DNA from: a bacterium
GTDB lineage: Bacteria > Hinthialibacterota > Hinthialibacteria > OLB16
Reading direction: 5' to 3'
Assembly: GCA_022072055.1 (NCBI GenBank)
Contig: JAJVIK010000002.1
Location: forward strand, 355,615 to 419,614
Length of the DNA: 64,000 nucleotides
This document shows, piece by piece, positions 6,230-63,513 of the stretch (its first letter is position 1; the number at the start of each line of letters is the position of its first letter). The notes under the pieces are model-generated. The model ran no database searches and was not told the DNA's origin. It worked only from the letters and a program-made list of their open reading frames with translations. The position numbers were made by a program, and so were the translations under genes.

Positions 6230-6345
6230 GTGAAAACTTTTCCCCCCCAATGGCATGGAATGATCCGGCAGAACTGGGCCGCGTGGAGTTTCTCCCGAAT
6301 GCCGGACCGGGAATAGGGTTCCAGGGGTTCGGATTGCGACTCAGC

Positions 6346-6374
6346 TTGCGGGACCGCGCGCCGCGCACTATAGT
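6346..6374 (+). promoter_or_regulatory. Promoter of the tRNA-Val gene
   Basis: TTGCGG (6346-6351), a 17-base GC-rich spacer and TATAGT (6369-6374) place a transcription start about six bases upstream of the mature tRNA 5' end. Confidence 0.65.
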
Positions 6375-6386
6375 CTGTCACCGTAA

Positions 6387-6463
6387 GGGCGATTAGCTCA
6401 GCTGGCTAGAGCACCAGTATCACAAACTGGGGGTCGCAGGTTCAAGTCCCGCATCGCCCACCA
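6387..6463 (+). tRNA. tRNA-Val(CAC), CCA encoded
   Basis: A full cloverleaf can be drawn. The acceptor GGGCGAT pairs with ATCGCCC, the D stem GCTC with GAGC, and the anticodon stem CCAGT with ACTGG. The seven-base anticodon loop ATCACAA gives anticodon CAC (reads GUG, valine). The T arm is GCAGG-TTCAAGT-CCCGC, with one A-C mismatch in the middle of the stem. Discriminator A and a genomic CCA follow at 6460-6463. Confidence 0.93.
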
Positions 6464-6534
6464 CCCTTTTCCACCTTGCCGTTCCCTCCCTGAAGGCCGA
6501 TACTCCAACGTGAAGAACGGGAACTGAGCAAACC

Positions 6535-6780
6535 ATGCGAGTCCCCTATACGGCCCATTTTGAACCCGCCGAAGAAGGCGGATGCACGGTCACAGTCCCC
6601 GCCCTTCCCGGCGCTATCACCGAAGGGGACACCTTCGAGGAAGCCGTGGCGATGGCCGAAGAATGTATCCTCGGTTACCTGGAAACCCTTCAACAGGTTG
6701 GAGAACCGATCCCGGTGGAAGCGGATCCAATGGACCCCGTGAGTGTTCGGTTGAACGTGGAAATCTCCGAAGCGGCATGA
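6535..6780 (+). CDS. hicB: HicB-family antitoxin
   Basis: An 81-residue HicB/UPF0150 protein that would bind and neutralise the HicA RNase encoded next to it. The partial RNase H-like fold is recognisable in YTAHFEPAEEGGCTVTVPAL near residues 5-24, followed by GAITEGDTFEEAVAMAEE and YLETLQQVGEPIP. It lacks the C-terminal DNA-binding domain found in longer HicB proteins, so autoregulation by this protein alone is uncertain. Its stop codon overlaps the hicA start (ATGA), which implies coupled translation with the antitoxin first. Confidence 0.88.
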   Translation: MRVPYTAHFEPAEEGGCTVTVPALPGAITEGDTFEEAVAMAEECILGYLETLQQVGEPIPVEADPMDPVSVRLNVEISEAA

Positions 6781-47171: not shown

Positions 47172-50171
47172 ATGAAAACGCTGGACAACATCAGAATCGG
47201 AAAGAAGTTGATCGGGGGATTCCTTCTGGTCGCAATGATCATGGCGGGCCTGGCGTTCGACAACTACAGGCGCTTCGCCGACGGCGATGAAATGTTCAAT
47301 GTGTTGTACGAGGACGCCCTGCGGATGATCTCGCAGACCGCCGCGGCCAGGAACGCCCTGATGAGATCCGAATCCGCCCTCCTCCATTATGTCCTGCATC
47401 CCTCCGAGCGAGCGAGCCTCTCCGAGGCGATGAAAGTCGGGACCACGGAGGTCGAGACTCAGATCAACAAGATCAAGGAATTCCGAAGGCTGGAAGGCTC
47501 CACGGCGGAGGACGAGGAGGGTAAGGCCCTCGTGGAATTCGACAGAAACTGGCCGCGAGCTCTGGAGGCGATGGACGAGGTCAGGAGCCAGGTCGATGCG
47601 GGGAAGACGGATGCAACCCTGCTCGCGCTGCGGGAAGGTGGAACGGCGCGGACCGCCTTCGCCTCGGTTCTGGGCGCATTGGAGGAGCTGGCCCGAATTA
47701 ACGAGAAGACCGCCGCGGATGTTTACGCGGAGCAGCAAACGGACTTCGACAGCTCGGTCCGCATGATCGCGATTCTCACGTTGGTTGGGCTATGCGTGGC
47801 GCTCTTGATCGGAATCGTCCTCACCCGCGGCATCACCGGCCCGCTGGCTCGGGGAGTCGAAATGATGCGGGAGATGGCCCAGGGCCGCCTCGGCCTCCGG
47901 CTCCGGATGGAGCGCGGGGACGAGGTGGGCGTGCTTGCCCGCACGATGGACGAGTTCGCGGATGATCTCCAAGGGAATGTGGTCGCGGTGCTGCAGAAGG
48001 TGGCGGTCGGCGACCTCTCGCTCGAGGCAAAGGTCAAGAATGACGGGGATGAGATCGGGCCGGCGGTGAAGCTGGTCATCGATTCCCTCAGGGGACTGAT
48101 TGAAGAAGCCCGGGCGCTTTCACTGGCCGCGACCGAGGGACGTCTTGGCGCGCGCGGCGAGGATACGAAATTCCAGGGCGCCTACCGCGAGATTATCGGC
48201 GGGGTCAATCAGACCCTCGACACCCTGGTCGGATACCTCGACAGCATGCCCGCCCCCGCGATGATCGTGGACAGCGATTTCACTATACGTTACATGAACA
48301 AGACCGGCGCCGCGGTGGGAGAAAAGAACCCTGAGCACCTGGTAGGAACGAAGTGCTACGACTTCTTCCGGACTGAGGACTGCCGCACGGCGCGCTGCGC
48401 CTGCGCGAGGGCCATGCAGGAGGGACGCGAGTCCACGGCGGAAACGATCGCGCGGCCGGATGGAAAGTGCCTGAACATCAGCTACACCGGGATTCCGGTT
48501 CGAGACGGCAACGGCAAGATCATCGGCGCCTTTGAGATCGTTTCCGACCAGACCGCCATCAAGCGCGCGGCGGCGGTCTCTCAGGCGGTCGCGGACTTCC
48601 AGAAGGTCGAGGTGGACCGCCTCGCGGGAGCCCTCGGACAGCTCGCCAAGGGCAACCTCGACTTCGACATGGCAGTCGCGGAGGGGGACGAAAACACCGC
48701 CGAGACTCGACTGAACTTCCTCCGAATCGCCGAGAGCCTGAACGAGGTCAAGGAAGCCGTCACCGCGCTTTCGGCGGACGCCCAGAACCTCGCTCGCGCG
48801 GCGGTGGAGGGGCATCTCGCCACGCGCGCCGAGGCCGACAAGCATCAAGGCGACTATCGGCGGATTGTCCAAGGGGTCAACGAGACCCTGGACGCCGTGA
48901 TCGGCCCGCTCAATGTCGCCGCCGAATACGTGGACCGGATCAGCAGGGGGGACATTCCCTCCAAGATCACCGATTCCTACAACGGCGACTTCAACACGAT
49001 CAAGAACAACCTGAACCAGTGCATCGACGCCTTGCGCGGCCTGATCGAGGAGGATGGCGGCAAGGCGCTGGAGGCTGCCGCAAGTCGCGACCTCACCGCG
49101 CGCGTCCAGCGTGAGTACGCGGGGGCGTTCAACACCATGAAGGAGAACATCAACAAGGTTCTTCAAAGTCTGGATGAGGCCCTCGGGCAGGTCGCCGCCT
49201 CGGTCGAGCAGGTCAACGAGGCCAGCAATCAGATCAGCGCGGGGAGCCAGACTCTGGCCGAAGGGGCCAACGAGCAAGCCGGCTCGCTGGAGGAGGTCTC
49301 GGCCAGCCTGGAGGAGATGGCCGCCAACACCCGCCAGAGCGCCTCCAACGCAAACCAGGCCAAGCAGATGTCGAACGAGTCCCGCCAATCCGCCGAAAAG
49401 GGCAACAACGCCATGCAGCAGATGTCGAGCGCGATCAACAAAATCAAGGCCTCTTCGGATGAGACGGCCAAGATTGTGAAGACCATTGATGAAATCGCGT
49501 TCCAAACCAATCTCCTGGCGCTCAACGCAGCCGTTGAGGCGGCGCGCGCCGGAGATGCCGGAAAGGGATTCGCGGTCGTGGCCGAGGAGGTCCGCAACCT
49601 GGCTCAGCGCTCCGCCGCCGCCGCGAAAAACACCGCCGACCTCATTGAGGAGTCTGTGCGCAACGCCCAGGGCGGCGTGGAGATCTGCGACGATGTCGCG
49701 AGAATCCTGAGCGAGATCGTGGATGGCTCCAAGAAGGTCAGTGAGGTGATCGCCGAGATCGCCGCCGCCTCGGACGAACAATCAAAAGGGATCGACCAGA
49801 TCAACACGGCGGTCGCCCAGATGAACACGGTCACCCAGCAGAACGCCGCCAACTCCGAGGAGTCCGCCGCCGCCGCCAATCAACTGCGAGGCCAGGCCGA
49901 GGAGCTGGCCGCGATGATCACAACCTTCACCCTCTTCGCTCAGTCGGCCCAAGCGGGGCATCAAGCCGCCGTCACGTCCGTCTCGCGGACCGCCGAGAGA
50001 CCTGTGCGACCGCTACCGGCCGCGCCCCGGATGTCGCCTCGGAACGGACATGGATCCAAGGCGACCTCGGGCAAGGCCAAGACTCGACCGCTGGCAACCA
50101 ACCGGCTCGCGAGGGCCGTCAAACCGGAGGATGTCATTCCTCTGGACGACGACGATCTCAAGGACTTCTGA
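47172..50171 (+). CDS. Methyl-accepting chemotaxis protein with tandem HAMP-like region and Cys-rich PAS
   Basis: A 999-residue transmembrane chemoreceptor. TM1 is about residues 14-31 ([18 protein letters not shown]). A periplasmic four-helix-bundle sensor follows. TM2 is about 196-215 ([18 protein letters not shown]), then a HAMP domain ([19 protein letters not shown]). Further HAMP-like repeats occur around 270-350 and 480-640, bracketing a PAS domain ([20 protein letters not shown]) that carries a Cys cluster ([18 protein letters not shown]). The signalling tip is [20 protein letters not shown]. The tail ends DDDDLKDF with no NWETF-like CheR tether. The ATG lies 57 bases after cheW. Confidence 0.93.
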
Positions 50172-50192
50172 GGGTTCATTGGGATCCTGATC

Positions 50193-50227
50193 CCCCTCTC
50201 CGGACGTGGGACGAGTCCGGAGAGGGG
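50193..50227 (+). promoter_or_regulatory. 13-bp stem-loop between the MCP and cheR
   Basis: CCCCTCTCCGGAC (50193-50205) and GTCCGGAGAGGGG (50215-50227) form a perfect stem with a 9-base loop in the 120-base gap. There is no T-tract, so it is more likely an attenuator, processing site or mRNA-stability element than a simple terminator. It could also end the upstream transcript. Confidence 0.55.
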
Positions 50228-50291
50228 CCGCCCGGGACGTATCCATCCTCCCCACGGTCAGAGACTGCAATCGAGAACGAAGGCGAATGTC

Positions 50292-51101
50292 ATGGACCGA
50301 GAGACTTTCAACGAAATCCGGGACTTTGTTTACGCCCGGAGCGGGATCCACCTGGCGGAACACAAAGAGTCCATGGTCGGCGCGCGAGTCGGCAAGCGGA
50401 TGCGGGCCTTGGGATTCGACAACCCGCGCGCCTACATGAACTACGTCCTGGAGGACCGCGGTGGAGAAGAAGCGGTAAGGCTCCTCGACGCCATCTCCAC
50501 TAACGTGACCTCCTTCCTCCGGGAACCCAGGGCCTTTGAGTTCCTGCGGAGCCGGATCGAGGAGTGGTGGCGGGAGGGACGGCGGAAGTTTCGTTTTTGG
50601 TCGGCCGCGTGCTCCACGGGCGAGGAGCCTTACAGCATTGCCCTCACCGCGTTGGAGTCCTCGGCGGGAAACGGCGCGGACCTTCGCATCCTCGCCACCG
50701 ACATTTCCACGCAGGTCCTTCAGACAGCGGCGCGCGGGATTTATTCGGAGGAGCAGGTTGCGCCGCTTGCCGGTGACCTCCTCATCCGTCATTTCGCTCG
50801 GACCCTCGGTGAAGGGGGGCGCCCAGAGTATCAGGTTCGGGCGGCGCTGCGTGACCGAATCTCCTTTTGCCGTTTGAATCTCTCGGACCCTCCTTTTCCC
50901 ATGAGTGGGCCGTTCGACGTGGTCTTCTGTCGAAACGTGATGATCTATTTCGACCTCGCGGTCCGTAATCGTCTGCTTGCCGAGACTCACCGTCTCCTCC
51001 GTCCTGGCGGATTCCTGATCCTCGGCCAGTCGGAGGGACTCGCGGGAGTGACCACCCAGCTTAAGACCGTGGCGCCATCGGTCTATCGCAAAGAGGAATA
51101 G
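50292..51101 (+). CDS. cheR: Chemotaxis protein methyltransferase CheR
   Basis: A 269-residue SAM-dependent enzyme that methylates receptor glutamates. The N-terminal helical domain (about 1-70) precedes the SAM site FWSAACSTGEEPYSIALT near 100, ILATDISTQVLQTAARG near 131 and FDVVFCRNVMIYFD near 213. LRPGGFLILGQSE near 238 is the final strand. The start follows GAACGAAGGCGAATGTC weakly, but the N-terminus DRETFNEIRDFVY fits CheR. The length is typical. Confidence 0.95.
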   Translation: MDRETFNEIRDFVYARSGIHLAEHKESMVGARVGKRMRALGFDNPRAYMNYVLEDRGGEEAVRLLDAISTNVTSFLREPRAFEFLRSRIEEWWREGRRKFRFWSAACSTGEEPYSIALTALESSAGNGADLRILATDISTQVLQTAARGIYSEEQVAPLAGDLLIRHFARTLGEGGRPEYQVRAALRDRISFCRLNLSDPPFPMSGPFDVVFCRNVMIYFDLAVRNRLLAETHRLLRPGGFLILGQSEGLAGVTTQLKTVAPSVYRKEE

Positions 51102-51128
51102 GGCCCAGCCAGGGCTTGTGAATCCGCC

Positions 51129-52385
51129 ATGACCATTGACCTGCAGGTAAAGAGACAGGACCTCGGCAAGCGGGTTCTTTTGGGTATCGCCCTGGGAATT
51201 CCATTTCTCGCGACGTCCGGCGCGGGGTGGGATGGAGGGGATGGAGGGTTCTTTGAGCCGCGCCACCTCTCGTCGATCCCCGGTGAAACCAGGGACCGGC
51301 TCAAGCAGTGGGGTCTGACCGAGGAGGTCAACATTGTCGGTGAGGGGCTTTGGAACGCGAAGGGTGGAAGAAACACCCATCACTCGGGGGAATATCGCGG
51401 GAACATCGGACTGTCCCTGGAGCTGGACACCGGCCAGGCGGGCCTTTGGGAGGAGGGGACCCTGTTCCTTCATCTGGATCTGACGCGCGGGTCTCCCTTC
51501 ACGGAGGAGCATGTGGGGGCGTACATGTGCTCCTCGAACATCGAGTGCGAGGATGTCACGCAAATCTCGGAATTCTGGTATCGCCAGTATCTCTTTGACC
51601 ACAAGGTGTGGGTGAAGCTCGGCAAGATCGACGCTAACGCGGAGTTCGCGAGAATCGATTACGCCGGTGAGTTCATCCACTCCTGCGGGGCCTTCTCGCC
51701 CAACATTCCGCTCCCGACTTATCCCGATCCGGACTGGGGGATCATCCTGGGAACGGACCCCGAACAACCGTTTTCAATCGCCGCTGGGGTCTTTCAGGGG
51801 CGGCCGGATGGGGGCCGTTCATTGGGCGATTCATTTGAGCGTTGGGAAGGTCCGTTGGTTCTGGTTGAACCGAGCTTCCGGTACGACTTGCGCGGCCATT
51901 CCGGTCGGTTGGCGCTCGGCGGATGGTGGAATGGGGACGAATTCGACCGTCTGGATCAGGACCTTGAGGACCCTGGGACCGTCAACGGCGCCCATGGATT
52001 CTACGTGACCTTGGAACAGGAGATCTGGCGGGAAAACCCCGGATGCGCCGAAGGGGAGGAGCAGGGAATCGGCTGGTTCCTTCACTGGGCCTGGGCCCCC
52101 GAGGATCGAAGCGAGGTGAAGCGCTTCATCGGGACCGGCCTGCAGTGGACCGGCATGGTTCCCGGCAGGGACTCCGACATTTCCGGAGCGGCCCTCTTCC
52201 GGGCGACCTTTTCCGACGAACTTGTCGCGGTCCACGGCGCTGAGAGCGCCATCGAGGTTTTCCATGAAGCCCGCCTCACGGAGAACCTGAGTCTCAGACC
52301 TGTTGTTCAGTACATCGTCGATCCGATCGACGCAAATGGAAAGGACGCGCTCGTGCTTGGATTGCGATTCGAAATGTCGTTCTAG
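51129..52385 (+). CDS. OprB-family carbohydrate porin
   Basis: A 418-residue outer-membrane protein of the OprB (carbohydrate-selective) type. A signal-like N-terminus spans about 15-32 (RVLLGIALGIPFLATSG). The mature chain has the family's beta-barrel rhythm (YRGNIGLSLELDT, WVKLGKIDANAEFA, LALGGWWNGDEF, LRPVVQYIVDPI) and ends LVLGLRFEMSF with the terminal aromatic expected of barrel proteins. It lies inside the chemotaxis run between cheR and a receiver gene, with 27-base gaps, which is an odd neighbour for a porin. It could deliver the sugar attractants that the island senses. Confidence 0.8.
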   Translation: MTIDLQVKRQDLGKRVLLGIALGIPFLATSGAGWDGGDGGFFEPRHLSSIPGETRDRLKQWGLTEEVNIVGEGLWNAKGGRNTHHSGEYRGNIGLSLELDTGQAGLWEEGTLFLHLDLTRGSPFTEEHVGAYMCSSNIECEDVTQISEFWYRQYLFDHKVWVKLGKIDANAEFARIDYAGEFIHSCGAFSPNIPLPTYPDPDWGIILGTDPEQPFSIAAGVFQGRPDGGRSLGDSFERWEGPLVLVEPSFRYDLRGHSGRLALGGWWNGDEFDRLDQDLEDPGTVNGAHGFYVTLEQEIWRENPGCAEGEEQGIGWFLHWAWAPEDRSEVKRFIGTGLQWTGMVPGRDSDISGAALFRATFSDELVAVHGAESAIEVFHEARLTENLSLRPVVQYIVDPIDANGKDALVLGLRFEMSF

Positions 52386-52412
52386 CGGTTCGTGGAAAGG
52401 AGTGTGGCTGGG

Positions 52413-52817
52413 ATGTCCAAAGAGGCATGCGACAGGGTGTTATTGATGGAGGATGACCCCGCGGTCGGGGAGATGATGGAAAAGATGCTGCTTCAGCTGG
52501 GATTCGACCCCCATTGGGTCCGTCGCGGCGAACATGCCATCCAAGCGTACCGTGAAACCCTGATGACCGGGCAGTGTTACGATTCGGTCATCCTGGACCT
52601 GTTTGTGGAGGAAGGCATGGGCGGGATTGAAACTCTGAAAGGTCTGCGCGAGCTGGACCCGAACGTTAAGGCTCTGGCGGCCACCGGGGCCATGCGGGAC
52701 CAGGCTCTTCCGGACTACACGGAGATCGGGTTTCGGACCACCCTCGCCAAACCTTTCACCATGAACGAGCTCAGTCGCGCTCTGCAAATGACGGTCACGG
52801 GGGTGAGCGTGGAATGA
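52413..52817 (+). CDS. Single-domain response regulator
   Basis: A 134-residue receiver protein. The acidic pair lies in LLMEDDP, the phosphoacceptor is Asp62 in VILDLFVEEGMGG, and the conserved Lys is in TTLAKPFT. The D-L-F-V-E-E loop after the Asp is more acidic than in CheY. I start at MSKEACDR, ten bases after AAGGAG; a GTG seven codons upstream is possible. The last four bases overlap the cheD start. Confidence 0.85.
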   Translation: MSKEACDRVLLMEDDPAVGEMMEKMLLQLGFDPHWVRRGEHAIQAYRETLMTGQCYDSVILDLFVEEGMGGIETLKGLRELDPNVKALAATGAMRDQALPDYTEIGFRTTLAKPFTMNELSRALQMTVTGVSVE

Positions 52818-53425
52818 GCGCGGCATTCGATCTCCCCGGCTCTTTGGAGGGCCTCCGGTCTCGGTCCACGCTCGGAGGTGGAGCCGACACGGACTTCCGT
52901 CCTGAAATCGGCTACAGCTTGATCCGCGAGCGACCGGGGGCGTCCGGAGTGAGTTGGCTGGTGGGGGTCGGAGAGTTCTCGGTCTCGGATCGGCCGAAAG
53001 ATGTCTTGATCGCGCATTCCCTGGGATCCTGCCTGGGGTTGTCCGTCTATGACCCAGTGCTCCGCCTCGGGGGGATGGCTCACTGCATGCTTCCCCTCTC
53101 CAAGCAGAATCCGATGCGAGCCTCGGAGCGCCCCGCGCTTTATGTGGACACGGGGATTCAAGTCCTCCTTGAGCACTTGTTCGGTCTGGGCGCGCGCAAG
53201 GAAAATCTGGTGATCAAAGCCGCCGGATGCGCGGCGATCCTCCACGACAACGGAATGTTCAGAATCGGGGAGAAGAATTACGCCGTGCTGCGCAAAGTGC
53301 TTTGGAAGAACGACCTGCTCGTGACTTCCGAGGAAACCGGAGGGAGCGCCCCGCGAACCGTGTCCCTGGAGATAAAGACCGGCAGGACCTTTGTTCAATC
53401 CGGAGGCCAACATCGGGAGCTCTAG
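52814..53425 (+). CDS. cheD: Chemoreceptor glutamine deamidase CheD
   Basis: A 203-residue CheD that deamidates receptor glutamines and can bind CheC-type phosphatases. The catalytic Cys is in HSLGSCLGLSVYDP (near residue 77) and the His in GGMAHCMLPL (near 94). KAAGCAAI and IGEKNYAVLRKVL follow as in the family. The first 55 residues are a non-homologous, Ser/Gly-rich extension. The start overlaps the preceding receiver stop as ATGA. Confidence 0.92.
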   Translation: MSAAFDLPGSLEGLRSRSTLGGGADTDFRPEIGYSLIRERPGASGVSWLVGVGEFSVSDRPKDVLIAHSLGSCLGLSVYDPVLRLGGMAHCMLPLSKQNPMRASERPALYVDTGIQVLLEHLFGLGARKENLVIKAAGCAAILHDNGMFRIGEKNYAVLRKVLWKNDLLVTSEETGGSAPRTVSLEIKTGRTFVQSGGQHREL

Positions 53426-53478
53426 AAGGCGCCCGAGATCTCGGTCGTCACCGTCCGGGACGAGAGGAGGCTTAAGCG

Positions 53479-53857
53479 ATGGCGTTCAACATACTGGTGG
53501 TGGATGACTCGGGCACGGTCCGGGATTTCTTTGGAAAAACCCTGAGGCTCGCGGGGATTCCTTTGGGGGACCTGTTTCAGGCGCGGAACGGCGCCGAGGC
53601 GCTGGCCATCCTCAAGCATCACTGGATCGATCTGGTGTTCACGGACATCAACATGCCGCTGATGGACGGTTTCGAGCTGGTCGAGGCGATGCGGGAAGAC
53701 GATCTCCTCGAACGACTCCCGGTCGTGGTGGTGTCCGCGGAACAGGACCCGATGGGAATTGAAGAAATGCTGTCCAAGGGGGCGAGGGCCTATGTTCGCA
53801 AGCCTTTCACTCCGGAACGGATAAAGGAAGTCGTCGAGGATCTGTTGGGAGTCGGCC

Positions 53858-53868
<11 letters not shown>
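53479..53868 (+). CDS. cheY: CheY-type response regulator
   Basis: A 129-residue single receiver domain. The N-terminal acid cluster is in ILVVDDSGTVRDF, phospho-Asp56 in LVFTDINMPLMDG and the conserved Lys near 104 in AYVRKPFTPERIKEV. The Thr/Ser position in VVVVSAEQ is Ser. It is the likely phosphate acceptor from CheA in this cluster. Its end overlaps the CheX-like gene by 11 bases. Confidence 0.92.
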
Positions 53869-55347
<1,479 letters not shown>

Positions 55348-55353
55348 ATCCGA

Positions 55354-58300
55354 TCAGCTCGCGGCCTGCCCTCGCAGAACTCCCGACACTGTGGCCGCCA
55401 GGTCGCGCGGCTTGAAGGGCTTGTGGATGAAGGGAGCCTCCGTGTCCACAAAACCGTGGGGCGCCATGGCCTCATCCGTGTACCCGGACATGTAGAGCAC
55501 TTTCAGGTCCGGATGATCCGCTCGCAGGCATTCCACCAGGGCCGCGCCGCTCATTCCGGGCATGACCACATCGGTGATGAGCAGATTGGGACTCAAGCCC
55601 TCCGAACCAACCAGCCGAAGGGCCTCGCTCGCGTTTTCCGCCACTCTCACCTCATAACCGAGGCTGCTCAGGAATCTCTCGACCAGGGTCCGAATGGAAG
55701 GCTCGTCTTCAACCACGAGCAAGGTTTCTCCGTTTCCCCTCAGGTCCTCGCCTTCGCCCAGGGGGCCTCTGAAGTCCGGCTCCGCGTCTGTTCTTGGGAG
55801 GAGAACCTTGAAGATCGCGCCCTTGCCCGGCTCCGAATCCACCCAGATTTCCCCACCATGTTGCTTGACAATCCCGTACACCGTGGAGAGGCCGAGACCG
55901 GTCCCTTTTCCTTTCTCCTTGGTGGTGAAGAAAGGCTCGAAGATCTGGGGCAAGGTTTCTTTAGTCATCCCGCAACCCGTGTCGGTGACGGACATCATGA
56001 CATAGCTTCCGGGCGCGAGCGCCAAGCTGTCTTGCGGTTCCGATTCCGGTTGATCCACATTGGAGGTCTCGATGGTCAGCCGGCCGCCCATGGGCATGGC
56101 GTCTCGGGCATTGACCACAAGGTTCATGATGACCTGTTCGATTTGTCCCGCGTCGGCCATCACCGGGGCCAGGTTCCCCGCGAGACGCAGCTCCAGGGAG
56201 ACATCTTCTCCAATCAACCGTCGCAACATCTTTTGAAGGTTCTGGATCACGGCGTCGAGGTTCACAACCTCGGGTTCCAGCGTCTGCCTCCGGCTGAAAG
56301 CCAGGAGCTGTCGTGTCAGCGCCGCCGAGCGCTTCCCGGCGGACACGATCTCAGCGACCGTTTCGTGGTATGGATCGCTGGCCTGCAAGTCTCCCAAGAG
56401 CATCTCCCCGTACCCGAGGATGACGCTCAGCATGTTGTTGAAATCATGGGCCACCCCTCCCGCGAGACGTCCCACCGCCTCCATCTTCTGGGCCTGACGA
56501 AGTTGGGATTCCAGGGAAAGCTTCTCGGTGATGTCCTCAACCAGTTCCACGGCAGCGGTGATTTCGCCGGCTGAATTGAGGAGCGGAGAGGACACAATCC
56601 GGTACTTCCGATTTCCCGCGCCTTGCTGGGTCTGCAAGGTGGCCTCGTGGACCTTGCCATCCCGCAGCGTCTGGTACGTTGGGCAGTTATCGCAAATCAC
56701 GTTGCGGGGCGGATCACTGAAGACCTGATGGCAGATCGGGCGCCTCGCCGACTCCACCCCCGGAAACCACTCGTGCATGCGATGGTTCATCTCGAGGATT
56801 TCCATCCCGGGGCCGATCAGGGCCACGCCGATTTCGATGTTGTCCAGGATGCTGCGGAGCTTCGCCTCGCTTTCCGCCAAGGCGCGCTCGGCGCGCTTGC
56901 GCCCGGTGATGTCCTCCTTGACCGCGACAAAGTGCTCGATCACGCCGCGTGAATCCTTGACGGGCGAGATCGAGGCGGACTCCCAGAAAAGCTCCCCGTT
57001 CTTCTTCCGGTTATGGAATTCACCCCGCCATTCATCCCCCCGAGTGATGGTTTCCCACATCCGCTCATACTCTTCCCGCGGAGTCTCCCCGGACTTCAGG
57101 ACGCGCGGGTTCTTCCCGATGACCTCCTCCCGCGAATACCCGGACACCTGAGTGAATTTGGGGTTCACATACTCGATGCTCCCCTCCGTGTTGGTGATGA
57201 CAATCGAGGCCGGGCTGAACTCGATCGCGTGCCACAGCTTGCGTAAGTCCTCCTCGGCGCGCTTGCGTTCGGTGATGTCTCGGACCAGACCCAAGTTGTA
57301 TCCCTGGCCCTCATACTCGAAGTAATTGGCGCTGACCTCCACCGGGAAGATCCGACCGTCCTTGGTCCGGTGCCTGGTCTCGAAAGTGAGCGAGCCGCGC
57401 GCCTTGAGTTCGCTCCAGTGCTCCCGCCAGCGGTGAGCGGGAAAATCCGGGTCGATGTCCGGAACGGAAAGCGTGAGAATCTCCCCGCGAGGCCACCCCA
57501 GAGCTCGACACGCCTCCTCATTCACGTGCAGGACACGCCCCTCTTCGTCGATGAGGAAGGCGGCCTCGCGCACATGGTTGAGAGCGAAGTCCAGGAGGGT
57601 CAGCTGCCGCGCGGCCTGCTTGCGCTCCACAAGGTCCATGACCATCGACGCGAGCGCTTGGACCATCTCGACATCCTTCTCGTCATAGTCCGTGGACTTA
57701 TTCCCGACTCCGATGATGGCGGTCACGCGGCCATCCCGCACGACCGGGACTCCTAGGTCGCGGGCCACGGGGGCGTGTCCCATCGGCAGCCCCTTCGTGT
57801 GCGGAAGGCTGGCGTAGTCGTTGTGGATGACCGGCGCTTTGGCGTGGAAACAATCGACCCAGACACCCGCCTCGCTGATCGGATAGTGCAGCCCCTTGCC
57901 CTCCGCCAGGCATGTTTCCTCCTTGAGCGTGTTGGTGGACCACATTTGCAGGGTCAGGCGATGCTGATCCGGGTCCACGAAATGGAAATAGCCGATGCGG
58001 CTCCCGGTATAAAACTCGGCCGCGTCAAGGCCGGCCCGCAAGAGGTCGTCGAGGCTGCCGCGCGAGGCGATCTCGGATAAGTCCAGACGCTTGCGCAGCA
58101 GGGTTTCGGAGCGCTTCCGGGCCCCGATGTCTCGGATGAAGCAGAAGATTCGGCCCCCGGCGATCGGCCAATAGGAGGCGTTGACCTCCACATCCCAAAC
58201 CGTTCCGTCCTTCGTGCGGTGGAAGGACTCGAACAGGTCCGTCCCTTGCTCCATGATTCGTTGCACATGGGCCGCGACATCCGCGCGGTCCTCCTTGACC

Positions 58301-59769
58301 TCGAACTCCCAAACCTCCTTGCCGACTATCTCCTCGCGGGAGTAGCCCGAGCGGTTCAGATAGGCGTCGTTGACCTCGACAATGCGACCTTCCGTGTCCA
58401 CGGTCCAGAAGCCATCCGCCGAGGTCTCGATGACCGCGCGGTATCGCTGCTCGCGATCCTGGAGCGCCTCCTCGGCGCGTTTTCGCTCCACGCGAGTGCG
58501 CAGGGTGACAATTCCGAAGGCCAAATCTTGCGAGAGCTCCTCCAGCAGCTGAACCTCATCGGGTCCGAGCGGATGGTCCTCCGGGGAATTGATCACGAGG
58601 ACCCCGAAAGCGCGGCTGTCTTCGTCCATGAGAGGAAGCGCGATCACGGAGCGAACACCATAATGCGCGGCGCGCTCGCGCCAGACCGCCAGGGCCGGAT
58701 CGGCGTTCACATCCTGAACATGAACCATCTCTCCGCTTCGGATCGCGCGGCCCGAGGGGCCTTTCCCGGTCTGCGACTCCTCGTCCCAGGAGATATGAAT
58801 GGTCTCGACAATCTCGGGCCGGACCCCATGCCAAGCCACGGGGCGCACGGTCTTGAGGGGGTCCTGTTCCGCGTAACCCACCCAAGCCACCTGGTATCCC
58901 GCCTCCTCGCAGACAATCCGGCAGATCTCCTTCAAAAGGGTCTGCTCGTCATTGGCGCGCAAGAGGGCCTGGTTGCATTCACCCAGGGTGCGGAGCGCGC
59001 GATTCACCCGGAGAAGCTCCTCCTCCGTGGTTTTCTGATCCTCAAGAAGCGAAAGGAGCGCGCGGCGCGAGCGCTCCGAAGACTCCAGGAGCCGCTTGAT
59101 GCGCTGCTCGTTTCGCACCAGCTCCGCCGTCCGCTCGACGACCTTTTCCTCCAGGGCGGCCTTGGCCCGCAAGAGGTCCTCTTCCGCGCGCTTGCGCACC
59201 CCGATCTCGCGCTCAAGGTCTTCGTAGGCCCTCCGCAAACGAGTGTGGCTGTTGATCTCGTTTTTCAACACCAGCGCGGCGAAGCTAAAGAACGTGGGCA
59301 AGGTGGGCGACAGGTCCCGGATGGCGACATGCAGCCCCTCCATCTTGAGAACCCCGACCACTTCGGAACCAACCAGGAGCGGGACCGCCCAGGTGTACCC
59401 CCTGGAAAACTCAGGGGTCAGCATGCGAGTCTCGCGGAACGGCCTTTCCTCCTCGACCGGCGCGCGCGACTCCAGGGCCGTTCGGACAAGTTCATCTTCG
59501 ATCGAAGCGAGCGGCTCATCGCCCCCCTGGAGGTCCGCCATCCGCGGTTTTCCGTCGATCCAGTAGTAGAGGACAAGGTCGAGTCCGCCGATGACCTCCC
59601 CGATGGCCCTCAACAATCCTCCAATCGTGTTCTCAAGTCCGGAGACTGAGCCGACACGGTTCATCAAGTGGATGATCAGCTGCAGGTGTGACTTGTCGGC
59701 GGCGAGTTTTTTGAGACGCTCCTCCAGCCGCGCGATTTCCGTCTTGCGGGCGGCGCGCTTGTCGCTCAT
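55354..59769 (-). CDS. Large GAF/PAS hybrid sensor histidine kinase with C-terminal receiver
   Basis: A 1471-residue soluble sensor kinase. In order: coiled coil, a degenerate GAF (about 30-170), a long coiled coil, GAF (about 270-420), PAS (ETSADGFWTVDTEGRIVEVN), GAF (EIASRGSLDDLL to MVMDLVERK), then three PAS domains. The last PAS contains a Cys cluster, ICHQVFSDPPRNVICDNC. HisKA follows with the phosphoacceptor His in GGVAHDFNNMLSVILGY, then a HATPase (VMNLVVNARDAMP, DTGCGMTKETL, GKGTGLGLSTV) and a receiver with Asp in LLITDVVMPGMSG. No transmembrane segment is visible. Start MSDKRAARK overlaps the MtaA-like gene's stop (ATGA). Confidence 0.9.
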   Translation of the reverse strand: MSDKRAARKTEIARLEERLKKLAADKSHLQLIIHLMNRVGSVSGLENTIGGLLRAIGEVIGGLDLVLYYWIDGKPRMADLQGGDEPLASIEDELVRTALESRAPVEEERPFRETRMLTPEFSRGYTWAVPLLVGSEVVGVLKMEGLHVAIRDLSPTLPTFFSFAALVLKNEINSHTRLRRAYEDLEREIGVRKRAEEDLLRAKAALEEKVVERTAELVRNEQRIKRLLESSERSRRALLSLLEDQKTTEEELLRVNRALRTLGECNQALLRANDEQTLLKEICRIVCEEAGYQVAWVGYAEQDPLKTVRPVAWHGVRPEIVETIHISWDEESQTGKGPSGRAIRSGEMVHVQDVNADPALAVWRERAAHYGVRSVIALPLMDEDSRAFGVLVINSPEDHPLGPDEVQLLEELSQDLAFGIVTLRTRVERKRAEEALQDREQRYRAVIETSADGFWTVDTEGRIVEVNDAYLNRSGYSREEIVGKEVWEFEVKEDRADVAAHVQRIMEQGTDLFESFHRTKDGTVWDVEVNASYWPIAGGRIFCFIRDIGARKRSETLLRKRLDLSEIASRGSLDDLLRAGLDAAEFYTGSRIGYFHFVDPDQHRLTLQMWSTNTLKEETCLAEGKGLHYPISEAGVWVDCFHAKAPVIHNDYASLPHTKGLPMGHAPVARDLGVPVVRDGRVTAIIGVGNKSTDYDEKDVEMVQALASMVMDLVERKQAARQLTLLDFALNHVREAAFLIDEEGRVLHVNEEACRALGWPRGEILTLSVPDIDPDFPAHRWREHWSELKARGSLTFETRHRTKDGRIFPVEVSANYFEYEGQGYNLGLVRDITERKRAEEDLRKLWHAIEFSPASIVITNTEGSIEYVNPKFTQVSGYSREEVIGKNPRVLKSGETPREEYERMWETITRGDEWRGEFHNRKKNGELFWESASISPVKDSRGVIEHFVAVKEDITGRKRAERALAESEAKLRSILDNIEIGVALIGPGMEILEMNHRMHEWFPGVESARRPICHQVFSDPPRNVICDNCPTYQTLRDGKVHEATLQTQQGAGNRKYRIVSSPLLNSAGEITAAVELVEDITEKLSLESQLRQAQKMEAVGRLAGGVAHDFNNMLSVILGYGEMLLGDLQASDPYHETVAEIVSAGKRSAALTRQLLAFSRRQTLEPEVVNLDAVIQNLQKMLRRLIGEDVSLELRLAGNLAPVMADAGQIEQVIMNLVVNARDAMPMGGRLTIETSNVDQPESEPQDSLALAPGSYVMMSVTDTGCGMTKETLPQIFEPFFTTKEKGKGTGLGLSTVYGIVKQHGGEIWVDSEPGKGAIFKVLLPRTDAEPDFRGPLGEGEDLRGNGETLLVVEDEPSIRTLVERFLSSLGYEVRVAENASEALRLVGSEGLSPNLLITDVVMPGMSGAALVECLRADHPDLKVLYMSGYTDEAMAPHGFVDTEAPFIHKPFKPRDLAATVSGVLRGQAAS

Positions 59770-60812
59770 GAGGGGTTCCCCCCTTCGAGCGAGCCGAACT
59801 CGAACGCCGCCTCGAGCATGGCGCGGATGTTCGGTTCGGGGATGTCGAGGGGCATGACACAAGTGCCGAAAAGGAACTTCCCTCCGGGGAGGCCCGCCTG
59901 GATGATCTTCCTCACCTGCATCCGGATCTCCTCCGGACTCCAGTCGATGAGGGCGATGTCATTGATCGTGGCGCAAGCCAGGGCGCGTCCGGCGAGGATT
60001 TCCTTGCCCTCCCGGACTCGGTCGAACGGGCCCATGTAATAGCCCTTGATTCCCGTCCGCTCGAAAACGGTCGCCATGACCGGGTTGATCCTGGCGGTGC
60101 CGCCGTAATACACCACTCCCGCGGGGCCCGCCGCGCGGATGTCCTTCTCGATCCAGGGGAGGGAGCACTCCTGGAAGAATCCCATCGGCACAATGTCCGT
60201 GGAGCCGAAAGGATTGGAGTAGATCAGCACATCCGCCCCGGCCTCGCGGTAGGCGGTCAGCTCCTTCACAAAGAACTCATGGCACCTGGACAGGAGCTCC
60301 TCGCGCGCGCCGGCGGGGCCAAGGAACAACAGGTCCATCCACCTCTCCATGCCCATGAGCAGCGCGGGGAGGGCCATCGAGGCCGTTATGTACGCGCAGA
60401 TCGGATACTTCCCGCCGATCTCCCGGCGCAGGATGCTCAGGCACTTGAGGGTCTCCTCAAAAGCCGGATGCGCGGATACATCCTCCGGAATTTCGAGACG
60501 TGGGATGTCCTCCAAGGAATTGATGACCCAATCCTCGACGTTCGGCGGACCGTTCTCGGCGAAGAGGATCTTTCGGCACCCGAGAAACTCGGCTTCTTTC
60601 CCCACATAGAAAAGGCACCAGACATTGTCGTGACCGTACTTCTCGCGCATCCGGATCTGCGCCTCGGCCACTCGTTCCCCATGCGAGTAATACTCTTCGA
60701 GACGAAGGTTCAGCTCTCCCGCTCCCTGATCGAGGAGGTTGCAGAACACGGGGATCCGGTCGACCGCGGCCCCGTCAAAAGCCGCGCTGAGTCGCTGCAT
60801 TCCAGTCACCAT
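59766..60812 (-). CDS. MtaA/uroporphyrinogen-decarboxylase-family protein without the His-x-Cys zinc motif
   Basis: A 348-residue TIM-barrel protein of the UroD superfamily, in the branch of corrinoid:CoM methyltransferases (MtaA, MtbA). Family blocks are VDRIPVFCNLLDQG, MREKYGHDNVWCLFYVGKEA, AGADVLIYSNPFGSTDIV and the C-terminal LDIPEPNIRAMLEAA. MtaA-type enzymes bind zinc with His-x-Cys and a later Cys. At the matching place this protein has Y235-Y-G-G, and only the later Cys318 remains. It is therefore likely altered in catalysis, or acts on a different acceptor. Start MVTGMQ overlaps the corrinoid-protein gene by seven bases; a second ATG four codons on is possible. Confidence 0.85.
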   Translation of the reverse strand: MVTGMQRLSAAFDGAAVDRIPVFCNLLDQGAGELNLRLEEYYSHGERVAEAQIRMREKYGHDNVWCLFYVGKEAEFLGCRKILFAENGPPNVEDWVINSLEDIPRLEIPEDVSAHPAFEETLKCLSILRREIGGKYPICAYITASMALPALLMGMERWMDLLFLGPAGAREELLSRCHEFFVKELTAYREAGADVLIYSNPFGSTDIVPMGFFQECSLPWIEKDIRAAGPAGVVYYGGTARINPVMATVFERTGIKGYYMGPFDRVREGKEILAGRALACATINDIALIDWSPEEIRMQVRKIIQAGLPGGKFLFGTCVMPLDIPEPNIRAMLEAAFEFGSLEGGNPS

Positions 60813-61477
60813 GGCCGCGCCTCCCGGATCAGCCGCGAAATCGCCTTAACCGCCTGAATGCCGTCCGGAGCCCACCCGTCCGCCCCCACGCGCTGGTGGA
60901 GCTGATCATCGAACCGAAACGGGGCTCCGCCGATAATGACCTTGATCCGATCCTCCAGCCCCCGCTCCCTGAGGATATCCCTCACCTTGAGGCATCCCTT
61001 TTCGCTTCGCGCCGTGTGGACCATCATGGCTGAAATCGCGATCACCGAGGCGCGACGATTTTCCGCTTCCTCCACAAAGCGCTCCGCCGACACGTTTACC
61101 CCCAGGTCCGCGCACTCAATCATTCGCGGCCGCAGGCAGCCCACGACAATCCTCTTCCCGAGCGTGTGCAAGTCTCCATGGGGACTCCCGATGACCACTC
61201 TCCCGACCGTTTCCGGCGCCACCCGGAAGCGAGGGAGCAGCTCCTCGGTGACATCCGCTGCGATCTGAGAAGTCAGGAAATGTTGCGCCAAGTTGAGCTC
61301 CTCGCACTCCTCGAGGTCGGTCACGCACTTCTCCAACGCCGGAATCACCACCTCGAAAATCAGTTCCTCGGCCGCGGCCCCTTGGTGGATCGCATCGCGG
61401 ACAAGCTGAAGCGCCCGATCCCGATCCGTGTCGAACAGCGCCTCGCTGAACAGGGACAGCAGCGGCGGGAGGTTCAT
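60806..61477 (-). CDS. Corrinoid (B12-binding) protein, MtaC/MttC type
   Basis: A 223-residue methyl-carrier protein. Residues about 10-85 are the helical cap, here with a LLSLFSEALFDTDRDRALQ start. The B12-binding Rossmann half has the cobalt-ligand signature GSPHGDLHTLGKRIV, with D102-x-H104-x-x-G107, then VIAISAMMVHT (the S-x-L-like strand) and IIGGAPF near 190. These are the three family contacts to the lower base. Its genes overlap on both sides (four bases with the sensor, seven with the MtaA-like gene). The partner methyltransferase that would load it (MtaB type) is absent here. Confidence 0.92.
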   Translation of the reverse strand: MNLPPLLSLFSEALFDTDRDRALQLVRDAIHQGAAAEELIFEVVIPALEKCVTDLEECEELNLAQHFLTSQIAADVTEELLPRFRVAPETVGRVVIGSPHGDLHTLGKRIVVGCLRPRMIECADLGVNVSAERFVEEAENRRASVIAISAMMVHTARSEKGCLKVRDILRERGLEDRIKVIIGGAPFRFDDQLHQRVGADGWAPDGIQAVKAISRLIREARPW

Positions 61478-63123
61478 TGGCGCTGACTCCCATACCGATG
61501 CGGCTCCCCCAGTTGCTCCAGCAACAGATTGACTTCCGCCTTGAGTTCCTGGACCCGCTCCTCACGATTCAACGTGAGGTCATGCCAGCGCTGAAGCTCA
61601 TTCAAGTGCTCCTGAAGCCGATGTTCCGCCCGCTTGCGATCCGTGATGTCGGTGAACATGCCGAAAGAGCCTCGGAAATCCCCGGAAGAATCCAGAATCG
61701 GAACGGCCGAGGCCAGCGTCCAGACCTCACTGCCATCCTTTCTGCGCAGACGACGCTCGTAGTTCGACGAAAGCCCGCGGCGTCGCTCCGCCATCTTTTC
61801 GTGGTGATCGGACAGTTCTTCCTCGAAAAGGAAGGAGGTGAGGGGTTGCCCGACCATCTCTTCAACCTTGACTCCAACCATTTCCGCCATCTTTGCGTTC
61901 ACGAAGGTGATCCGGGTGTCCGCGCCGAGCACCAGAATCCCTTCCACGGCGGTGTCCACGATCCGGCGGTATTTCGCTTCACTCTCGCGCAAGTCACGGT
62001 AAGTCAGGAGGCTGGTCAGGGCGTCCGTCATCCGCCTCCCGATCTCCTCGAATAGGCGCGCCTCCTCGGATGTCCAGACCCGTGGGTGAGAGCACTGATG
62101 AAGTCCGAACAGCCACGGCCTGTCCCCTTTTGGGTGAAGCGCCATGACGAGTTGGGATCTCAGTCCGAATTGTTCTGTCTCACCCCCCGGGAGAGGGTGC
62201 TCCGAGCCTGGCCCAAACCGCACCGGGCCATCCGTGGAGTTCGCGATCCGAAACACCCGAACCGCTTCAGAGTCGACTGGAACCTCAATCCCCAGTACCA
62301 GAGCGCCGGGATACTCCGGGCGAGTCCTTTCCATCGGCACACGCCACGACTTGGTTTCAGGGTCGCATGGGTAGACTAGCCAAGCCCGGTCGCACTCGAA
62401 GATCCCCAGCATCTCGCCGAGAACCTCACTCATCATTTCCTCCAAGTCATTGGTTCCCTGGATGGCCCGATTGACCCGGTCCAGGCTCTCAAAGAACCGA
62501 AGGTGACCTCGATACTCCCACTCCCCTCGTGCGGTGGCGCGCGTTTCGAGGCAGTCCCATTCTCCATTCCTCCGGAGGCTGGCTAACGGGTGGTCACGCA
62601 GGATGTCCAAGAGTGTCGGAGCGTTCACCCTCCCCAGTCCGTATGCGCATAGAACCAAGATGGGCTGCCCCGCAATCACTCGGTCGATGGCAGCCTCAAA
62701 CTCAGAAAACGCCTTTCCATGGCATCCACGCAACGCGGATGCGTCCAATGCCACGCGAAGTCCCTCGTGGCCTTCGGCCAGCGCTCGAGTGAGTCGAACT
62801 CTCCAGTCCTCCACGGCTTGCTGGGTATCGAAGTTTCCCCCCGAAGTCACCCACCGCGCGGCGGAGATCATGACCAATGCGCCCGTCGCGAGGAATTCCT
62901 CGAAGTCGGGAATCCCTTCCCTCAGCGCCTCGCGCGCCTTGGGTGCAGAACCACCGGAACCTACCCACAGGCAAGCCTCGTTGCTTTCCAGTCCGGCTCT
63001 CAGAAAGGGGACCACCGCGTCATGGAGCTCGGATTGCTCTCGGTGGAGGTGACAGAAATGGGTTCCCCACGGCAGCGTTTCGATCCAGGGAATGTCTGTT
63101 TTTCGCGATTGTTTGGCCTTCAT
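61474..63123 (-). CDS. MEDS-GAF-PAS sensor without kinase output
   Basis: A 549-residue soluble sensor. Residues about 10-190 are a MEDS domain (first described in DcmR and methanogen sensors), visible in THFCHLHREQSELHDAVVPF, LRAGLESNEACLWVGS and VALDASALRG. Residues about 205-380 are GAF-like and about 385-505 a PAS (RIVDTAVEGILVLGADTRIT). The C-terminus is a coiled coil with no HisKA, HTH or GGDEF domain. Start MKAKQSRK follows GAGGAAG. A TTG eight codons upstream is possible. It opens the four-gene run with the corrinoid protein. Output probably passes to the downstream hybrid kinase. Confidence 0.85.
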   Translation of the reverse strand: MKAKQSRKTDIPWIETLPWGTHFCHLHREQSELHDAVVPFLRAGLESNEACLWVGSGGSAPKAREALREGIPDFEEFLATGALVMISAARWVTSGGNFDTQQAVEDWRVRLTRALAEGHEGLRVALDASALRGCHGKAFSEFEAAIDRVIAGQPILVLCAYGLGRVNAPTLLDILRDHPLASLRRNGEWDCLETRATARGEWEYRGHLRFFESLDRVNRAIQGTNDLEEMMSEVLGEMLGIFECDRAWLVYPCDPETKSWRVPMERTRPEYPGALVLGIEVPVDSEAVRVFRIANSTDGPVRFGPGSEHPLPGGETEQFGLRSQLVMALHPKGDRPWLFGLHQCSHPRVWTSEEARLFEEIGRRMTDALTSLLTYRDLRESEAKYRRIVDTAVEGILVLGADTRITFVNAKMAEMVGVKVEEMVGQPLTSFLFEEELSDHHEKMAERRRGLSSNYERRLRRKDGSEVWTLASAVPILDSSGDFRGSFGMFTDITDRKRAEHRLQEHLNELQRWHDLTLNREERVQELKAEVNLLLEQLGEPHRYGSQRQ

Positions 63124-63513
63124 TGCGACTTCCTCATCTACATCCAATCAAGTCCGATACTTTCATACGGCATCCAAGTATCAAACCGAGGCGGTTGAGG
63201 AGCTCGCAGGCATGACCCCCAAGTGTGCTCATCGGCGACCAGATGTGACCGGATTCCAAGCCCCTCACCCGCGCCTGGAGTGCCGTGAGCCTGCCTTCAC
63301 GCGCGCATTTGCGCCCCCAATGGGCGAGCTGAAGGACCGCTTCGGCGCGCGATCTTGAACATGAAGATTATAGCAAACCTTATCGGCAAAGTGGAGGCGG
63401 AATGATACAATGGTCATCGTGTGGGGTTTCCGTGGACGGGTCCCGGAAGCATCCCGACTCCTGGTGGACTCCGATACTTCCAAATTGACTCGGAGTCTTC
63501 CACGATCCCAAAC
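63124..63513. other. Divergent intergenic region upstream of the corrinoid-sensor operon
   Basis: A 390-base gap between the sensor gene and the heparinase-like gene. It contains the inverted repeat at 63156-63182. I see no other RNA gene, terminator or coding frame of convincing composition in the rest. Confidence 0.5.
63156..63182. promoter_or_regulatory. Inverted repeat upstream of the MEDS sensor gene (candidate operator)
   Basis: GATACTT (63156-63162) and AAGTATC (63176-63182) form a 7-bp inverted repeat with 13 bases between, 33-59 bases upstream of the sensor start and next to a TTGATA element on the minus strand. It could be an operator or leader hairpin. Confidence 0.4.

Follow-up and report, generated by a model that had tools for sequence, protein, structure and literature searches.

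A four-gene operon in a 64,000-nucleotide stretch of bacterial DNA (the window) is a derived copy of a larger conserved unit, in which a corrinoid protein (COR) and a UroD/MtaA-like protein without a zinc site (UROD) are encoded beside a histidine kinase; in the window, DUF1638 has been lost from the unit and a MEDS-GAF-PAS accessory protein added. We lean toward the view that the operon is a sensory rather than a catabolic system, with the corrinoid/UroD pair as the part through which the kinase senses a ligand or methyl group; an enzyme of methyl transfer would thereby have been made into a bacterial sensor. This view draws on the conservation of the unit, its gene order, the reciprocal co-occurrence and co-divergence of its components, the fusion of DUF1638 to the kinase, an intact corrinoid motif, the loss of the zinc ligands, and the lack of any methyl-acceptor enzyme recurring nearby. 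The unit is apparently undescribed so far; as the preliminary description had supposed of the arrangement, no account of it was found in the open-access literature (subscription papers were outside the scope).

The operon in the window

The four genes, like all features given below, lie on the minus strand and overlap head to tail in the order MEDS-GAF-PAS protein, corrinoid protein, UroD/MtaA-like protein, and hybrid kinase, with successive overlaps of ATGA (4 bases), 7 bases, and ATGA (4 bases). The preliminary description had placed them at 55354-63123, and its coordinates and overlaps were borne out, as were its domain calls for the MEDS, corrinoid, UroD-type, and hybrid kinase genes by Pfam. 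It named the four genes correctly and missed a separate N-terminal GAF domain of the kinase, as well as the fact that DUF1638 and at times RamA are part of the typical operon.

The first gene (61474..63147, starting from an ATG at 63123 or a TTG at 63147) encodes a sensor with no output domain of its own, in which Pfam identified MEDS (E = 2.8e-38), PAS (6.6e-19), and GAF (2.2e-5) domains. The MEDS domain (62587..63063, residues 29-187 counted from 63147) scored 131.7 bits against PF14417, for which the cut-off is 29.8, a feature shared with MEDS/DcmR regulators; a helix-turn-helix domain was not found in this protein. A GAF domain related to that of the MEDS protein (62029..62448) occurs in the sensors of three other operons (L023, L029, and G007/L036).

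The corrinoid protein (60806..61477, 223 amino acids) carries the lower-ligand motif GDLHTLGK and matched PF02310 (B12-binding, 7.8e-21) and PF02607 (B12-binding_2, 1.7e-5); it thus has the B12-binding cap and the DxHxxG-containing domain of MtaC/MtbC-type proteins, and its TIGR02370 score of 91 bits is under the cut-off of 215.3 bits. Relatives of COR are 43-60% identical, and the DxHxxG motif is kept in 48 of 48.

The third gene (59766..60812) encodes a 348-amino acid protein matching PF01208 (1.7e-38). Its AF2 model (pLDDT 95.1) is a UroD-type barrel whose best PDB matches are UroD and MtaA, with a TM score of 0.83-0.86 to MtaA (4ay7/4ay8). In this fold and in having an adjoining corrinoid partner gene it is like MtaA, MtbA, and CmuA; it differs from them in scoring 86.4 bits against TIGR01463 (MtaA/CmuA; cut-off 235.4) and in having lost the H-C-C zinc ligands, so that the earlier label of an altered MtaA is apt. 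The ligand positions are occupied by Y/G/C, and the His is replaced by Y or F in 48 of 48 sequences. The triad was absent from every kinase-linked UroD examined, in both lineages described below; it is intact in L015/L039 and in MtaA. Mean column identity among the 48 UROD sequences is 64%, and numerous polar and aromatic positions are invariant. Loss of the zinc ligands need not equal loss of catalysis, because zinc-free methyltransferases of the UroD family, CdmB among them, are enzymatically active (PMC13222342).

MtaB was not found among the operon genes by Pfam. Beyond the 5' end of the operon are divergent genes that seem unrelated as judged by sequence reading only; they code for a large protein of secreted type, for an esterase-like protein, and for large secreted proteins in which c-type-haem-like motifs occur. 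Neither MtaB nor another methyl-acceptor gene was seen just upstream, in keeping with the earlier remark that the pair lacks MtaB. An MtaB cluster is present at another site in the genome, adjoined by the single copies of RamA and DUF1638; the operon itself contains no DUF1638 and has no RamA next to it. A candidate chemotaxis output of the operon has proximity as its only basis.

Conservation of the unit and its kinase

The unit, consisting of COR, UROD, DUF1638, and a kinase with a dedicated input domain (HKN), sometimes preceded by RamA, was found at about 50 loci with nearly fixed order and spacing in at least nine phyla (eight named and that of the window), with UROD 52-69% identical. Among the 48 loci that no contig end truncates, the order COR-UROD-(DUF1638)-HKN holds in 47, including one with an HKN remnant only, and DUF1638 lies between UROD and HKN in 43 of these 47. 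Across 277 genomes of one class, UROD occurs in 32, HKN in 36, and both in 31 (Fisher p = 1e-34, uncorrected for relatedness), and a kinase match inside about 1.5 kb was seen for 0 of 16 generic homologues of UroD (identity 20-28%). A second, distant UroD lineage shows the order COR-UROD-DUF1638-GAF/kinase in 18 of 20 loci, its GAF domain matching HKN weakly in a profile comparison (50 columns, 61%). With both UroD lineages pooled, 60 of 277 genomes of a Desulfuromonadia-type class are positive; Planctomycetota (1/343) and Gammaproteobacteria (4/369) were rejected as homes of the family, which is rare there. The reading in the preliminary description depended on the four genes being conserved together. 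The link of the corrinoid/UroD pair to a kinase, not to MtaB, is present in nine phyla or more and is backed by co-divergence as well as reciprocal co-occurrence; the four-gene set is not the conserved unit, as MEDS is present in 2 of about 50 loci (tallied by Pfam, a single-sequence MEDS profile being weak, with 33 bits for L045), other sensors take its place in relatives, and DUF1638 and often RamA belong instead. MEDS is therefore ruled out as the defining sensor, and the MEDS protein accompanies the unit only occasionally, as an accessory rather than a hallmark.

The kinase (55354..59769, about 1470 amino acids, ATG at 59769) is a hybrid histidine kinase with the architecture HKN GAF-GAF-PAS-GAF-PAS-PAS-PAS-HisKA-HATPase-REC, the HisKA and HATPase_c catalytic core lying at 55789..56472 and the C-terminal receiver domain (REC) at 55387..55719. 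HKN, its first ~190 residues (59200..59769), comprises a coiled coil and a separate conserved GAF domain specific to the operon family; it is under the Pfam cut-offs by sequence, and the GAF fold was recognized by AF2 (pLDDT 91.5) and Foldseek. Pfam gave GAF and PAS domains only, and a PocR domain was not found in this kinase. Tree distances of HKN correlate with those of UROD and COR at r≈0.93, compared with 0.66 for the kinase core to which it is joined (partial correlations 0.89 and 0.35), and the input is best assigned to this domain. Tandem HKN kinases follow one input module at three loci (L040, L042, and L047). HKN is also found in PAS-SpoIIE proteins without UroD neighbours in other genomes, which leaves room for a ligand other than the corrinoid pair.

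DUF1638 is a domain of unknown function in Pfam. Three genomes have it in an in-frame fusion with the HKN kinase, as a single DUF1638-HKN-HisKA-HATPase ORF in L051 and alike by ORF limits in L048 and L049. Operons without DUF1638 do not form one clade in the UroD tree; its loss has therefore probably been repeated. RamA lies next to COR in 7 loci only, which rules it out as an obligatory neighbour; it occurs anywhere in 37 of 49 genomes, and about 10 genomes that carry the operon yielded none. In Phaeobacter, genetic evidence links DUF1638 and RamA to methionine synthesis of the B12-dependent kind (PMC5764234). At one locus (L109), RamA-COR-UROD-DUF1638 stands without a kinase, so the input module can exist alone.

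Proposed mechanism and alternatives

In the sensory system that we favor, the corrinoid protein and its zinc-site-less UroD-fold partner would form an input module that responds to a ligand or a methyl group, usually with DUF1638 as an adaptor or reactivation partner, and RamA, where present, would reset the cobalt to Co(I). HKN of the adjoining kinase would read the state of the module (methyl-Co(III), Co(I)/Co(II), or a ligand-bound complex) and pass it on by phosphotransfer via REC, and UroD lineages would probably differ in the methylated or C1 compounds that they read. Physical contact, cobalt chemistry as the signal, the identity of the ligand, and the output are parts of this scheme that we infer, and the earlier proposal that the methylation or redox state of the corrinoid is read through the kinase has the same standing. 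More tentatively, and with less than even confidence, we propose a widespread class of receptors in which the corrinoid methyltransferase is itself the detector: the zinc-less UroD would capture a specific methylated compound, the methyl group (or cobalt state) would mark COR, and the dedicated GAF kinase and DUF1638 would read the mark, with UroD lineages representing different specificities and RamA resetting the detector at the expense of ATP.

Systems with related logic are known. H-NOX and NosP are cytosolic cofactor-binding proteins encoded beside a kinase under their control, and they resemble the unit in that an operon-encoded cofactor protein feeds a kinase; they use haem and NO rather than corrinoid, UroD, and DUF1638, and there is no homology. 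Type 1 MGC (mlp) clusters likewise combine UroD-family proteins, a corrinoid protein, and RamA without a folate methylase, but have up to three Mlps, argued from their zinc site to be S/Se methyltransferases, and no histidine kinase or sensor is named in the text of that paper (PMC10418091). RdmS and MsmS of Methanosarcina are comparable as methyltransferase-associated sensor kinases (RdmS, PMC11784639); they are haem or thiol redox kinases without an H-box and are not known to be coupled to a conserved corrinoid-UroD-DUF1638 set.

Another of the closest known systems, the dichloromethane mec cluster of anaerobic bacteria, illustrates the main alternative explanation, which we consider unlikely if not negligible: a corrinoid methyltransferase cassette that serves methyl catabolism or assimilation and includes its own regulator, in which UroD would demethylate a substrate onto COR, the acceptor enzyme would be encoded elsewhere, and the kinase would sense the substrate directly to control expression. 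In the mec cluster, UroD-family methyltransferases and a corrinoid protein are likewise accompanied by a kinase and a receiver, and its MecGH, probable corrinoid-reactivation proteins, are locally absent in strain DCMF and present elsewhere (PMC9768040), which resembles the placement of RamA and DUF1638 away from the operon in the window genome. RamA adjacent to COR in 7 loci suggests real enzyme-like turnover and counts against a sensory role, and the kinase-free L109 also fits a cassette. However, mec has several methyltransferases including MTII, a transporter, and a PocR-carrying kinase, whereas the unit has a single UroD, which is zinc-less, lacks MTII, and shows a dedicated GAF domain (HKN) and DUF1638-kinase fusions. 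The dedicated MtaB-type/MTII enzyme of a three-component methyl-catabolic system is missing from the cluster, and no family of methyl-acceptor, MtaB-type/MTII, or pathway genes recurs in the about 50 neighbourhoods, whereas kinases do. It also counts against a cassette that the input GAF tracks UroD rather than its own kinase core, that DUF1638 is fused to the kinase, that RamA was not found in the about 10 genomes mentioned above, and that the kinases are hybrid, with no DNA-binding regulator seen recurring beside them.

CarH and AerR-type proteins use B12 domains for sensing. With these as precedent, COR might sense redox state, oxygen, light, or cobalamin status on behalf of the kinase, UroD being inert and purely structural and methyl chemistry playing no part; the family-wide loss of the zinc triad and the operon genomes without a detected RamA are compatible with this idea. 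We nevertheless rate it as quite improbable, as strong conservation of UroD and the maintenance of separate UroD lineages fit ligand-specific binding, and RamA, a methyltransferase activator, adjoins COR where noted. That the genes are neighbours by chance or through clade-specific gene order, with no functional link, is barely credible: head-to-tail overlaps are common in compact operons, but constant order and spacing in at least nine phyla, reciprocal co-occurrence, co-divergence, and gene fusion refute it.

If the sensory interpretation is true, enzymes of methyl catabolism would have been recruited as sensory inputs, bringing corrinoid chemistry into two-component signalling, and DUF1638 would gain a function as the link between corrinoid protein and kinase. 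The unit is small enough for direct testing in genetically tractable hosts. The interpretation would also account for many UroD-family and B12-binding genes that are orphans in environmental bacteria, those of Geobacter type among them, and would point to methylated signals yet to be found in sediments.

Genes, surroundings, and relatives of the operon

The operon consists of four overlapping genes on the minus strand, as the preliminary description had claimed; the coordinates and overlaps (4, 7, and 4 bases between successive genes) were found again and the domains were confirmed with Pfam. The genes encode a MEDS-GAF-PAS protein (63123 or 63147 to 61474), a corrinoid protein (61477 to 60806), a UroD/MtaA-like protein (60812 to 59766), and a hybrid kinase (59769 to 55354). 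Because the corrinoid protein scores 91 bits against the 215 demanded by the methyltransferase-corrinoid subfamily and the UroD-like protein 86 bits against the 235 demanded by the MtaA/CmuA family, both are outlying relatives. When methyl-catabolic genes were sought just outside the window, the genes lying 5' of the operon (L035) proved divergent and apparently unrelated. The stop codon of the kinase lies a few bases from that of cheB in a convergent chemotaxis island (47172–55347; MCP, CheR, CheD, CheY-like, CheX, and CheB), which is interrupted by an OprB porin gene. MCP and CheW genes occur again near the operon in 7–8 related loci, and a flagellin gene follows the kinase in G007 (L036), a relative from the window's class.

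With each species represented by one genome, a scan with the UroD protein identified 11 full relatives (52–67% identity) in Geobacter and other Desulfuromonadaceae, Verrucomicrobiota, Ignavibacteriota, Hydrogenedentota, Acidobacteriota, Nitrospinota, Pseudomonadota, and Planctomycetota, many of them metagenome-assembled genomes, and G007 encodes a protein that is 69% identical. In all of these, the corrinoid gene precedes the UroD gene, which is followed by a kinase N-terminal region matching residues 1–200 of the window kinase. Only the first ~190 residues (HKN), modeled as a coiled coil and a GAF domain (pLDDT 91.5), are common to all of the kinases; the downstream part varies (HisKA hybrid, HWE, or multi-PAS/GAF). 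Most relatives encode DUF1638 (PF07796) between UroD and the kinase, and some encode RamA (Fer2 and RACo domains), the activator restoring corrinoid Co(I), 5' of the corrinoid gene. The UroD tree places the window's protein with G007 within a supported clade (100/95) that also holds Geobacter, Ignavibacteriota, Verrucomicrobiota, and Acidobacteriota sequences, and this mixing points to passage between phyla. The corrinoid-UroD-kinase link of the proposed four-gene unit recurs, but among about 50 loci MEDS was found in only one other (L045, in the gene directly 3' of the HKN kinase). Regulators of simple C1/C2 compounds are known to carry MEDS (PMC11507031), an association that may hint at the ligand class only.

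Conservation of the gene order

A UroD profile search was positive in 32 of 277 genomes (class of Geobacter sp. OR-1), and the neighborhoods of the matches were fetched and annotated with profiles. Of 50 distinct loci in all, the window and G007 among them, two end at a contig edge. HKN follows UroD in 47 of the remaining 48, including one with only a remnant (L046), and DUF1638 lies between them in 43 of the 47, the window, G007, L021, and L023 being without it. RamA adjoins the unit in seven loci. The sole kinase-free exception, L109, is a RamA-corrinoid-UroD-DUF1638 unit on a long UroD branch. As a control, a kinase or HKN match was found within about 1.5 kb of none of 16 generic UroD homologues. 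A NifE/NifN-like protein, judged by eye to resemble nitrogenase-cofactor assembly proteins, is encoded within 9 kb of the operon in L041, L042, L044, L056, and L064.

The reverse search with HKN matched 36 of the 277 genomes, 31 of them also UroD-positive (Fisher p 1e-34, kinship among genomes ignored). One of the five HKN-only matches starts at a contig start, and the other four are distant from any such operon. Three of these four (L102–L104; G208, G210, and G211) were read and share HKN, PAS, and one common C-terminal region, a SpoIIE-type phosphatase domain by Pfam in the one scanned (L102); corrinoid or UroD genes were not found near them. Here the same input domain is attached to another output.

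One locus, L050, carries a distant paralogous operon in addition to the family operon, and the UroD of this paralog has matches in 36 of the 277 genomes. COR-UROD-DUF1638 (COR, corrinoid protein) is present in 19 of 20 fetched loci of this second lineage, directly followed in 18 of the 20 by a match to a kinase core or to a GAF domain, the latter resembling HKN only weakly. The architecture therefore extends over several UroD lineages. The two UroD searches pooled gave at least one match in 60 of the 277 genomes, with second-lineage neighborhoods read for part of the matches.

Active-site residues and a separate MtaB cluster

AlphaFold predicted a confident UroD barrel for the window protein (pLDDT 95.1), with MtaA (4ay7/4ay8; TM 0.83–0.86) among the best solved-structure matches. 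The position of the MtaA zinc His is Tyr or Phe in 48 of 48 family members, the first zinc Cys is Cys, Asn, or Gly (window), and the second is non-Cys throughout, barring a shifted Cys in the window. Loss of the H-C-C triad, together with the low family score, bears out the earlier designation of an altered MtaA. The triad was also looked for in the second-lineage UroDs and is absent; generic cluster UroDs (L015/L039) retain it. Zinc ligands of UroD-family methyltransferases have been discussed (PMC10418091), and CdmB works without zinc (PMC13222342). Zinc loss would fit an O-methyl or haloalkane methyltransferase, some of which are zinc-free, or a binding-only role. The lower-ligand motif DxHxxG is preserved in 48 of 48 corrinoid proteins, so a His-on corrinoid is expected.

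The window's genome encodes a single RamA and a single DUF1638, adjoining each other on a different contig (L038, contig C6, about 50–57 kb), together with MtaB (PF12176, E 4e-155), an MtbC-type corrinoid protein, and two UroD proteins; a convergent PAS kinase comes next. This cluster is likely a true methanol-type methyltransferase system, and the window module could borrow its RamA and DUF1638. Phaeobacter mutant phenotypes link both proteins to B12-dependent methionine synthesis (PMC5764234).

Signaling and catabolic interpretations

The best-supported interpretation is that the corrinoid and UroD proteins, with DUF1638 where present, would serve as input to the HKN kinase. Chief among the rivals is a catabolic cassette with its own regulator, like mec, the dichloromethane cassette of anaerobic bacteria with which the operon was compared (PMC9768040). 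Enzymology is favored by RamA adjoining the corrinoid gene and by the kinase-free L109, whereas the lack of any acceptor enzyme recurring nearby favors signaling, as does the co-divergence of the GAF domain with UroD. Across 29 operons, HKN tree distances correlate with those of UroD and of the corrinoid protein (r 0.93 each) but less (0.66) with those of the kinase core from the same protein; the partial correlations are 0.89 for HKN-UroD given the core and 0.35 for HKN-core given UroD. These values are descriptive, as pairwise distances are not independent, but the HKN/core contrast lies within one gene. Signaling is further favored by a DUF1638-kinase fusion, a single ORF in L051 joining DUF1638, HKN, HisKA, and HATPase with a short linker; L048 and L049 have the same fusion, judged from ORF limits. 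Downstream of the fusion, L051 encodes a 388-aa protein (5430–6593) with a B12-binding cap and a B12-binding domain and no recognized output, possibly another cobalamin sensor. Tandem HKN kinases are found behind one input module in L040, L042, and L047.

Under the signaling interpretation, we infer that the HKN kinase would read whether cobalt in the COR/UroD module is methylated, or its redox state; no simpler chemistry would make use of both the conserved parts and RamA. A trigger enzyme could reconcile signaling with enzymology.
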